From assembly GCA_947446575.1 (NCBI GenBank), contig CANFHC010000003.1, forward strand, positions 1 to 64,000: DNA of 64,000 nt, read 5' to 3'. The stretch is from Bacteriovoracaceae bacterium. GTDB lineage: Bacteria; Bdellovibrionota; Bacteriovoracia; Bacteriovoracales; Bacteriovoracaceae. Shown here piece after piece: positions 43,585 through 47,105 of this stretch. The position numbers and the translations under genes were made by a program. Numbering within the stretch: position 1 is the stretch's first letter; each line of letters opens with the position of its first letter. Below the pieces are notes generated by a model. That model searched no databases. It had not been told where the DNA came from and saw nothing but the letters and a program-made list of their open reading frames with translations.

Positions 43585-43617
43585 AAAAAGCCCACCATTC
43601 GGTGGGCTTTCTTTTTT
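43585..43617 (+). terminator. Bidirectional intrinsic terminator
   Basis: A perfect stem AAAGCCCACC / GGTGGGCTTT with an ATTC loop is followed by CTTTTTT on the plus strand; on the minus strand the same stem precedes TTTTTGCG. It serves both the receiver operon and the convergent small secreted gene. Confidence 0.92.
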
Positions 43618-43648: not shown

Positions 43649-43828
43649 CTATTTACTAACGTTTTTTGCTTCTTCTTTAACAACTTCTGTTTCAACTGGT
43701 GCAACTACTTTTACCTCTCTCTTACCTTGGTTAGCATAAGGACATTCGCTTTTTTGATTTTCACCAACTTCAGCTGACATTGCTCTTAATCCAAAAAATA
43801 AAAGTGATGCGATTACTAGTGCTTTCAT
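43649..43828 (-). CDS. Small exported protein, paralog A
   Basis: 59 residues. GGGGGAATTT precedes the ATG. A signal peptide (MKALVIASLLFFGLRAMSA) leads to a mature peptide of about 40 residues with the core EVGENQKSECPYANQGKRE and an acidic/Lys tail ending NVSK. The core is almost identical to that of the gene at 44116-44298, while signal and tail have diverged. One Cys per chain could form dimers or bind a metal. No known family. It has a sigma-54-like promoter. Confidence 0.8.
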   Translation of the reverse strand: MKALVIASLLFFGLRAMSAEVGENQKSECPYANQGKREVKVVAPVETEVVKEEAKNVSK

Positions 43829-43873
43829 AAATTCCCCCTGACGGCTTTTTTAAGTTTTCTTGTAAATGTATAT

Positions 43874-43889
43874 TGCACCGTTCATGCCA
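43874..43889 (-). promoter_or_regulatory. Sigma-54-like promoter of paralog A
   Basis: The minus strand reads TGGCATGAACGGTGCA: GG and GC are separated by exactly 10 bases as required for the -24/-12 elements (consensus TGGCAC-N5-TTGCA). Transcription would start near 43863, leaving a leader of about 35 bases. The paralogous gene has the same arrangement. Confidence 0.6.
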
Positions 43890-43940
43890 ACATCATGGCC
43901 TTGGAAATTAAGCAACTTACTCTTGTAAAAATTACGTTGT

Positions 43941-43955
43941 GTCTAAAAACAGGAC
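43941..43955. promoter_or_regulatory. Upstream GTC-N9-GAC element, copy 1
   Basis: GTCTAAAAACAGGAC lies 52 bp upstream of the -24 element of paralog A. It shares its ends and the TAAA with the perfect palindrome upstream of paralog B. A candidate binding site for a sigma-54 activator. Confidence 0.4.
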
Positions 43956-44058
43956 AGTGGTGTCTGTTGATTAGTCATTATTTAATATATTTCATGTCTA
44001 TACATCCACGAGATGCGACATCATAACCATAAAAATGGCTAAAGCTCTTAGTCCATCA

Positions 44059-44087
44059 TAAAAAAAGCCCGGTAAAAACCAGGCTTT
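44059..44087 (-). terminator. Terminator of paralog B
   Basis: AAAGCC-c-GGT / ACC-a-GGCTTT with an AAAA loop; on the minus strand it is followed by a run of seven T. It lies about 28 bases past the stop codon of the gene it ends and insulates the two paralogs. Confidence 0.8.
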
Positions 44088-44115
44088 CTTTATTAATTAA
44101 ATTTTTAAAAAAAAA

Positions 44116-44298
44116 TTACTTACTAATGTTGGTTGCATCTTCTTTTTTAACTTCAGTTTCTACTGCAACAACTGGTTTTGCTTCTCTCTTACCTTGGTTA
44201 GCATAAGGACATTCGCTTTTTTGGTTTTCACCAACTTCGTTAGCAGCAAATACGTTTAAAGAAGCTATAGAGATAGTGATTAAAATTAAAAGTTTCAT
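44116..44298 (-). CDS. Small exported protein, paralog B
   Basis: 60 residues. AAGGGGAATTTT before the ATG, signal peptide MKLLILITISIASLNVFA, then NEVGENQKSECPYANQGKRE and the tail ending ATNISK. The 18-residue core matches paralog A perfectly, and DNA identity is highest there, so a tandem duplication is likely. The mature peptide is secreted or periplasmic with one Cys. Unknown family. Confidence 0.82.
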   Translation of the reverse strand: MKLLILITISIASLNVFAANEVGENQKSECPYANQGKREAKPVVAVETEVKKEDATNISK

Positions 44299-44332
44299 AA
44301 AATTCCCCTTGTGTACGTTTACTTATTACTAC

Positions 44333-44348
44333 TGCATGAGTAATGCCA
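44333..44348 (-). promoter_or_regulatory. Sigma-54-like promoter of paralog B
   Basis: The minus strand reads TGGCATTACTCATGCA with 10 bases between GG and GC, the -24/-12 geometry. The expected start near 44323 gives a leader of about 25 bases. Matches the paralog A promoter at the TGGCAT and TGCA ends. Confidence 0.6.
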
Positions 44349-44420
44349 AACGAAGAGACTGCAATTTTTATAAGTTAGGCGTTCACTAAATATAAGATTG
44401 TAAAAAATTTTAAACAGGCC

Positions 44421-44435
44421 GTCTAAAGTTTAGAC
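44421..44435. promoter_or_regulatory. Palindromic GTC-N9-GAC element, copy 2
   Basis: GTCTAAAGTTTAGAC is a perfect palindrome around its central base, 73 bp upstream of the -24 element of paralog B. The distance differs from copy 1 by 21 bp, two helical turns. It also lies just past the stop of the next minus-strand gene, so it could instead be part of that gene's end. Confidence 0.45.
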
Positions 44436-44443
44436 ATATTTTA

Positions 44444-44974
44444 CTAGCGACACATCTGATTACTAGCTTCAAGCGAGCACAGGAGTTTAGTCTCACGACC
44501 TAAATTGGTATACGTGGCCTTAATAATCATTTGTAGGTCATCAATCTTGCCTTGAACGATCTCTGCTTGATCAGTAGATAGATCTGCCATTAATGAAGCT
44601 AAGACCGACGTAGAGGTCGAAAGCCCCCCTATAAACGTGGCAATCTTAAGTACCTTAGCATCATTTTTAAAGCGGTAAGTAGCAATCGCCCCACCAAGGA
44701 CTGTAAGTGCTGTAACTGCATCAGCAATTTTTCTAGTATTTAAATAAACATTTTTATGATTCTTTTTAAGTTTAGCTTCTTCCAATGCTGTATTTAAAAC
44801 TTGTAATTGGAGGTTTAAATCTTTTAATGATTTTTTTAAAGCTTCGATGCTCTCAAGTCTTTCAGTCACATCAGCATCAACCACACGATTGACTCGAGAA
44901 GAACCGAAAGCATTCATAGCAATCGATGAAATTAAAATAGTGACTAAAAACAAAATTGAAAATGAAGCTTTCAT
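44444..44974 (-). CDS. Exported helical protein of unknown function
   Basis: 176 residues from the ATG; GAGGA lies ten bases upstream. A signal peptide or anchor (about 1-24) is followed by a coiled coil (ERLESIEALKKSLKDLNLQL), a hydrophobic middle that may form a hairpin of two short membrane helices, and a C-terminal helix ending SLEASNQMCR with two Cys. It belongs to a row of minus-strand genes for small exported proteins. Family unknown. Confidence 0.7.
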   Translation of the reverse strand: MKASFSILFLVTILISSIAMNAFGSSRVNRVVDADVTERLESIEALKKSLKDLNLQLQVLNTALEEAKLKKNHKNVYLNTRKIADAVTALTVLGGAIATYRFKNDAKVLKIATFIGGLSTSTSVLASLMADLSTDQAEIVQGKIDDLQMIIKATYTNLGRETKLLCSLEASNQMCR

Positions 44975-45056
44975 ATCGTCCAATCCTCACATAATAAGAT
45001 TGACACAATCATAGCTCGAAAGAATTTTTAGTGAGAAAGAGTTCTTGGCCGTAAGT

Positions 45057-45093
45057 AAAAAATATCAAGACTGCCTAAAAAATAGACAGTCTT
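45057..45093 (-). terminator. Intrinsic terminator of the Cys-rich protein gene
   Basis: Hairpin AAGACTG-c-CTA / TAG-a-CAGTCTT with an A-rich loop; on the minus strand it is followed by GATATTTTTT. It lies about 20 bases past the stop codon. Confidence 0.75.
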
Positions 45094-45413: not shown

Positions 45414-47042
45414 TTACATATTTAAATTAACACCTGCAGGCTTAACAATACTTAAAAGGGACTGAAATGCCTGTGTAACTTGTAAGGCCATCTTCGCGCC
45501 GGCCTTAGATTCTACTTTTTTGATTTCCCCGTAGTTATCGTAAGCTACGTTAATGATCCCTACATTTTCCATTTCAATTTCAACAGGTTTCCCCATTGAA
45601 TTATACTTGAATGAAAGAGTACGACGTGATTTTTCATCATTTTTTTCTTGGTCAATCATTTTCGTGATTTTTCCAACACGGTCATAAATAAGAAGTACTG
45701 ATTTTCCAGAGCTATTTACAGCCTTAGAAAGGTTACCCGTTTTATCGTATTGGAAAGTAGTCCAGCCTTCATTGTTTACAACTTTTGTGATCTTGTTGAT
45801 TTTGTCGTCGTAATCAAGTTGAACGAATTCACCTTTTGTAGAGGTCTTTTTAGTAAGAAGTCCCTTCGCATTGTATTCGAAAGTTGTAACGTCTTTACCG
45901 CGAGTGATTTTTAATGGAAGTGAACAACACTCAGAGTAGATTGTTTCTGTTTTAATTCCATCTAGCTCAGTCGCAATTCTGTATGTGTACTGCTGCCCAT
46001 CTGGTTTTGTTTTAATTTCGTATTCATAACGACTAACTGATTCTGGTCCATCAGTTGGTTTCTTGCTTACAGTTGTCCAGTAATGGAAGTCTGGATTTTT
46101 GGGATTGTTTTCGTACTTATACTTAGTCGACTCTCCATTTCTTTCGACAACTTCAGTTGCAAACGAGTTTTTATCGTACTTGATTTGCATCTTAGAATTA
46201 TCACCGTAAGTGATAGACGTTAAGTTGTGATTATTGTCGTAATCGTATTTATAACTATTCCCACCAACATCATTACTTCCAACTAAGTTCCCTTTTGGAT
46301 CGTAAGTATAATTAGTCTTTTTATCTCCAGCAGAAGCTGCAGATTTAATTTTCCCATCTGGGTACCACTCAAGAAGAATTTGTTTTGCTTGAGTATCTTT
46401 GATAGCGAAAACTTGATTAGCTTTATATTCAAATAATATAGCATAGCCATTTTTATCTGTGATTTTTACTAACTTTCCATCGTTATCAAAAAAGTCTGTA
46501 CGCCCATCAGAGTTACTTCTTTTGTATCCATCTTTTTCTTTAACAATGGTTTGAATACCACGGTCATTAGAATAAAGAGTCGTTCCATCAGCAAGTTTTG
46601 TTTCCACGTTGTATCGTTTAGAATAAACTTGGCGAAGTTCAGCGTCGTTATTTAAGCGAGTGACAAGAGCTTGCACAGCGGGCTCACTCATTCTTTCACT
46701 TTTCTTCATAGCATCTACAATTTTTTTCGAAGCTGATTCTACGTTTACTGCTTCTTTGGGAACGAAACGCGTTTGAGCTCCCGATCCGTTTTCAATGACA
46801 ACTACTGATCCATCGGCAGAAACAACAAGCTTTGTTTCATAGAGAGATCCCCAACCAAAACCAAACCAACCATTTTCAGTTGATTTCGCATTATATGTTC
46901 TTGTTACTTCTAAATCATGGTCACCACCAGGTACGATAATGTCTGTGTACGTGATATAAAAGTTACCATTTTTTAAGTTAACCCCTCCGAACGCCACCAG
47001 TGGCAATAACGAAAGAGCAATTAGTGATTTTTTAAAGCTCAT
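45414..47042 (-). CDS. YD-repeat (RHS-like) exported protein without toxin tip
   Basis: 542 residues from the ATG after GAGG/AAGGA. A signal peptide (about 1-20) precedes a DUF6531-like start (VTRTYNAKSTENGWFGFGWG) and about ten YD repeats of the form YDxxGNL (for example KYDYDNNHNLTSITYG, TFQYDKTGNLSKAVNS). Full RHS toxins are over 1000 residues with a PxxxxDPxG cleavage motif and a variable C-terminus; neither is present. It may coat the cell surface or shell a small cargo. Neighbours are small secreted proteins. Confidence 0.85.
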   Translation of the reverse strand: MSFKKSLIALSLLPLVAFGGVNLKNGNFYITYTDIIVPGGDHDLEVTRTYNAKSTENGWFGFGWGSLYETKLVVSADGSVVVIENGSGAQTRFVPKEAVNVESASKKIVDAMKKSERMSEPAVQALVTRLNNDAELRQVYSKRYNVETKLADGTTLYSNDRGIQTIVKEKDGYKRSNSDGRTDFFDNDGKLVKITDKNGYAILFEYKANQVFAIKDTQAKQILLEWYPDGKIKSAASAGDKKTNYTYDPKGNLVGSNDVGGNSYKYDYDNNHNLTSITYGDNSKMQIKYDKNSFATEVVERNGESTKYKYENNPKNPDFHYWTTVSKKPTDGPESVSRYEYEIKTKPDGQQYTYRIATELDGIKTETIYSECCSLPLKITRGKDVTTFEYNAKGLLTKKTSTKGEFVQLDYDDKINKITKVVNNEGWTTFQYDKTGNLSKAVNSSGKSVLLIYDRVGKITKMIDQEKNDEKSRRTLSFKYNSMGKPVEIEMENVGIINVAYDNYGEIKKVESKAGAKMALQVTQAFQSLLSIVKPAGVNLNM

Positions 47043-47105
47043 AAACCTCAAGTCCTTGTTAATAAAAAAATCTATTAAATATTTCGGTCATTTTAATCAA
47101 ATTCT

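Follow-up and report, generated by a model that had tools for sequence, protein, structure and literature searches.

The two tiny genes and their upstream elements

Two very small open reading frames lie in tandem on contig C3 of a 3.39-Mb genome, in the stretch of 64,000 nucleotides that was analysed as a whole (the window). Little has been described of how Bacteriovorax and its relatives control their exported proteins. Copy B (43649..43828, minus strand) encodes a 59-aa protein with the signal peptide MKALVIASLLFFGLRAMS and copy A (44116..44298, minus strand) a 60-aa protein with the signal peptide MKLLILITISIASLNVFA, each with one cysteine. A sequence-only reading of this DNA had described them as tandem genes with signals of their own and an identical 18-residue core (VGENQKSECPYANQGKRE), and both open reading frames were found as described. 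The pair is flanked on one side by lon, a cheY-like gene and a gene for a 109-aa protein, and on the other by genes for a 179-aa protein, an 85-aa protein and an RHS-repeat protein. Past copy A a terminator-like hairpin with a run of T behind it was read from the sequence (44064..44087, minus strand), which makes separate transcription of copies A and B probable; a second terminator-like hairpin (43590..43607), also read from the sequence, would serve copy B as well as the 109-aa gene that converges on it. No phage record encoding the peptide was found. A match of the tiny protein to PetL was rejected, being weak and spanning the hydrophobic signal peptide only.

Each gene is preceded on the minus strand by a sigma-54 promoter of the -24/-12 type, at 43874..43889 for copy B (TGGCATGAACGGTGCA) and at 44333..44348 for copy A (TGGCATTACTCATGCA), as the sequence-only reading had proposed. 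The 3.39-Mb genome was examined by pattern searches and in targeted stretches. The strict form of the promoter (TTGGCAYN6TGCA) occurred 10 times in the genome compared to none in the reversed control, with two of the ten belonging to the tiny pair, and most of the others stood in front of plausible genes, 22-58 bp before the start codon, and many of these genes encode signal peptides. A relaxed promoter pattern gave 44 raw matches with an N7 spacer, the same number as with the right spacer, so the relaxed core alone is uninformative and only the strict core, or the core together with a box, carries information.

A putative activator box was located further upstream of each gene. The box of copy B (43940..43956) is an imperfect palindrome (GTCTAAAAACAGGAC) centred 60 bp away from the -24 GG, counted to its first G, and that of copy A (44420..44436) is a near-perfect palindrome centred 81 bp from the corresponding G of its own promoter; copy B has in addition a second, weaker putative box (43961..43977), also centred at 81 bp. 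The GTC-N9-GAC elements reported earlier are found in these boxes at 43941-43955 (copy B) and 44421-44435 (copy A), their offset of two helical turns corresponds to the distances of 60 and 81 bp, and the element of copy A is indeed perfectly palindromic about its central base. The element is thus shared by both genes, but as a bare motif it was not commoner than chance (268 matches compared to 798 in the reversed control). Only the longer form TGTCTAAAnTTTAGACA, allowing at most one mismatch, was significant, with 12 sites in this genome and none in the control. A box-like match at 45072 was discarded as it falls within an apparent terminator hairpin.

Conservation and extent of the promoter and box

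A profile built from the two proteins picked up homologs across the order, in 26 of 129 genomes. Within the genus the gene was carried by 13 of 14 genomes, always as a pair, and homologs of other genera whose flanks were read retained the lon/cheY/109-aa/RHS neighbourhood. A TGGYA-N8-GC promoter was present in all 38 homologs, 48-67 bp upstream of the start codon, and a palindrome like TGTCTAAAnTTTAGACA further upstream in 37 of them, with the best palindrome scoring above the 99th percentile obtained for upstream DNA after shuffling; the box matrix for these homologs had been trained on the very sites that it scored, so that this result alone would be circular, the independent test being the peptide-blind search described below. 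Box centres were nearly all 49-51, 58-61, 68-69, 79-81 or 90 bp from the -24 GG, and these clusters, approximately 10 bp apart, indicate a symmetric upstream site on a constant helix face. The proposal of a sigma-54 secreted-peptide module with a common upstream element is therefore supported by conservation, and relatives that keep the peptides have kept the promoter and, with one exception, the box.

The peptide-blind search combined TGTCNAANNTTTANNCA, a distance of 45-75 bases and TGGCAYN6TGC across the 129 genomes. It returned 66 matches in 46 genomes and 19 genera, partly from related genomes and hence not all independent, compared to zero in the reversed control. Distances between box and promoter clustered near 60, 69 and 79 bp (58-61, 66-72 and 77-82) with almost none between; the clusters are one helical turn apart, as looping from one helix face requires. 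By a crude hydrophobicity rule, 56 of 64 readable downstream ORFs were exported-like compared to 16 of 39 background ORFs of the window. Tiny proteins were the most frequent product, with 18 downstream genes encoding tiny single-cysteine proteins of 57-72 aa. The sequence search had missed 13 of these 18, each of which has exactly one cysteine; six of the 13 loci have RHS or CheY/109-aa/Lon neighbours, and the flanks of several others were too short to show any. The thirteen probably represent the same gene, so far diverged that only the signal peptide, the cysteine and the length are still recognisable. That the open reading frames and boxes are chance features might be thought from their small size and from the result that no Pfam, NCBIfam or PHROGs family scored above cut-off for the tiny proteins; this explanation is refuted, with virtually no probability left to it, by 38 stop-free homologs, synteny, a conserved promoter and zero control matches.

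The box itself extends well beyond the tiny genes. With at most one mismatch, TGTCTAAAnTTTAGACA occurred 625 times in the 129 genomes compared to 29 times in the control, in 120 genomes and with up to 19 sites per genome. In the window's genome the best sites were mostly intergenic and many were located upstream of exported-protein genes, with clear sigma-54 cores at the boxes before a 113-aa CHTPR protein, a lipoprotein and a 182-aa protein that was labelled lytic-transglycosylase-like by eye. The module of box and promoter proposed for the pair is real there, but it is not private to the pair and marks an order-wide set of exported proteins: TGGCAY-N6-TGC promoters, with a palindromic TGTCTAAAnTTTAGACA that lies roughly 5 to 9 helical turns further upstream and keeps to one face of the helix. 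The comparative evidence for control of these promoters by sigma-54 and the box is strong, and the tiny genes likely belong, as separate transcripts, to a sigma-54 regulon of exported proteins that spans the order. This short and highly specific combination yields a list of co-controlled exported proteins, reveals tiny genes missed by protein searches and makes the role of sigma-54 in bacteria of a predator lineage directly testable.

Several perfect or near-perfect boxes were located 70-130 bp before exported-protein genes without a recognisable sigma-54 core (C1:117794, C1:104402, C35:3615 and C3:93327; L103, L102, L094 and L104, respectively). As several of the best boxes are of this kind, the protein that binds the box may be active at other promoters too. 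The same boxes would also suit a general regulator outside the class of bacterial enhancer-binding proteins (EBPs), with the overlap with sigma-54 promoters forming an extra layer of control. This is improbable given the helical phasing of box and promoter in the 66 peptide-blind matches and the Fis-like symmetric site of 15-17 bp, as expected for EBPs. The 171-177-aa exported protein that follows the strong box at C1:104402 appears to resemble in its layout the 179-aa exported protein beside the tiny pair (44444-44983, minus strand). In related genomes, five loci (L152, L241, L247, L249 and L257) have a box and a sigma-54 promoter followed by a constant gap of 121-123 bp and then an aminotransferase-like gene; this unusually long gap could hold a leader RNA or a missed small ORF.

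Candidate activators

The genome encodes rpoN once (PF04552 at C1:79150; E 2.6e-62) and seven EBP-like genes that carry GAFTGA. Since the protein binding an order-wide box should have an order-wide helix-turn-helix (HTH), three widely conserved EBP classes that qualify by eye were considered: a FleQ-like EBP on contig C11, L048 (G000:C4) and L049 (G000:C5), G000 being the window's genome. The first is a response regulator with a FleQ-like HTH (G000:C11, about 79770-81360, minus strand). Its class has by far the most FleQ-like HTH of the three (phmmer 1e-14), it has an AAA+ domain with GAFTGA and its best PDB match is FleQ (8p53). On reading, the DD, D, T and K residues of the receiver were present, indicating an apparently intact domain, with no kinase adjacent. 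As a single copy the HTH is found in 122 of 129 genomes. Almost no boxes occur in the seven genomes with its most diverged form, a correlation that lends support but is confounded by relatedness, as those seven are also among the most distant.

The closest described parallel is FleQ/FlrA of Pseudomonas and Vibrio, which resembles the C11 candidate in being an EBP, in its AAA+ domain and in its closely related HTH. The box proposed for FleQ is GTCaNTAAAtTGAC, 14 bp in length, although genome-wide confirmation failed in that paper (PMC6120874), and a published model of the FleQ HTH places it on a site of this type as a Fis-type dimer (PMC10723142). Both that box and the one found here are symmetric GTC...GAC sites with an A/T-rich centre (PMC6120874; PMC10723142), but GTC and GAC are separated by N8 in FleQ and N9 here, such that the box does not match GTCaNTAAAtTGAC. 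FleQ also has a divergent receiver-like domain without normal phosphorylation, whereas the receiver of the candidate appears intact, and FleQ targets flagellar and polysaccharide genes whereas the targets seen here are exported proteins. The candidate gene is located approximately 9 kb from flgB-flgC, and the targets that were read included no flagellar gene. No strong box, as autoregulation might leave, was observed at any EBP gene, and presence or absence of EBP classes over nine genomes did not pick out a single regulator. We propose with moderate confidence, on a balance close to even, that the C11 response regulator is the activator.

The L048 class offers a different activator for the same regulon, a two-component EBP in an operon with a histidine kinase and lspA- and lgt-like genes, kept across genera, which would act in the manner of GlrR/QseF and link the genes of exported proteins with envelope stress or with the maturation of lipoproteins. 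Its HTH is strongly conserved. The GlrR site, TGTC-N10-GACA (PMC4987338; PMC8745638), resembles the box, and the GlrR/QseF-glmY system of Enterobacteriaceae likewise combines a response-regulator EBP, sigma-54 promoters, TGTC...GACA sites and a link to the envelope (PMC4987338; PMC6075780). The spacing of N9 here is not the N10 of GlrR, however, and the box does not fit TGTC-N10-GACA; the targets of GlrR/QseF are small RNAs whereas those here are small proteins, and the L048 HTH is weakly GlrR-like and hardly FleQ-like. No close GlrR HTH was found among the EBPs of this genome, matches being weak for all. We consider the L048 EBP an unlikely activator. Less probable still is the L049 EBP, encoded beside an acyl-CoA carboxylase gene, which would make the same regulon metabolite-responsive through its PocR sensory domain. 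The class is widespread with a conserved HTH and a GAFTGA-type loop, but its neighbours are without a link to exported proteins and its HTH is less FleQ-like.

Also on C11, an EBP-like protein without GAFTGA or receiver is encoded directly before flgB-flgC (L262, 1529-2476). EBP-like matches of 314-327 aa near the FleQ-like EBP in other genomes resemble this protein, which is possibly a flagellar regulator working without sigma-54.

Predicted control and evolution of the mature peptides

With the C11 response regulator as the activator, a dimer or hexamer of the EBP would sit on the box and, once its receiver is phosphorylated, would loop to the promoter and open it by ATP hydrolysis. Inducibility is expected of any sigma-54/EBP promoter. 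Known sigma-54 regulons share the -24/-12 promoter and a phased upstream activator site with the regulon proposed here, but differ in their targets, which here are mostly exported and include a tiny single-cysteine family absent from the family libraries searched. Cleavage by signal peptidase might leave mature peptides of about 40 residues, each with one cysteine and a hydrophilic tail, and these might act in the periplasm or outside the cell, perhaps as disulfide-linked dimers, from which a similar mature sequence of both copies in each genome would follow.

Copies A and B were compared over 11 genomes of the genus. Signal peptides were orthologous, A grouping with A and B with B, whereas the mature parts had an identity of 0.65 within a genome compared to 0.51 when paired at random, the higher value not being reached in any of 20,000 pairings, and in six genomes the mature part was closer to its own paralog than to every ortholog. 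On these comparisons concerted evolution within a genome affects the mature peptides and not the signal peptides. The promoters of the pair (locus 43649-44298) stay distinct along with the signal peptides while the mature parts homogenise per genome. Gene conversion would do this, as would joint selection on a common partner. We favour the view that both proteins have to fit a single common partner, and each might be the other's partner through the lone cysteine.

Neither RpoN nor this box was linked to Bacteriovorax in any paper found in the portions of the literature consulted, and within those portions the regulon appears undescribed. The switch between attack-phase and growth-phase genes in Bdellovibrio (PMC3627812) belongs to a related predatory lineage, one where secreted proteins matter. 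Tentatively, the sequences would fit an order-wide sigma-54 regulon in a predator lineage, in which a FleQ-like response regulator has switched from motility to the exported proteome, with unnamed tiny single-cysteine proteins, forming covalent dimers and homogenised by gene conversion, as the most constant output, perhaps acting at the envelope contact between predator and prey.

The exported RHS-repeat protein that adjoins the tiny genes (45414-47051, minus strand) has no evident toxin tip. Its gene is kept beside them across the order, and a functional link with the tiny genes is possible.
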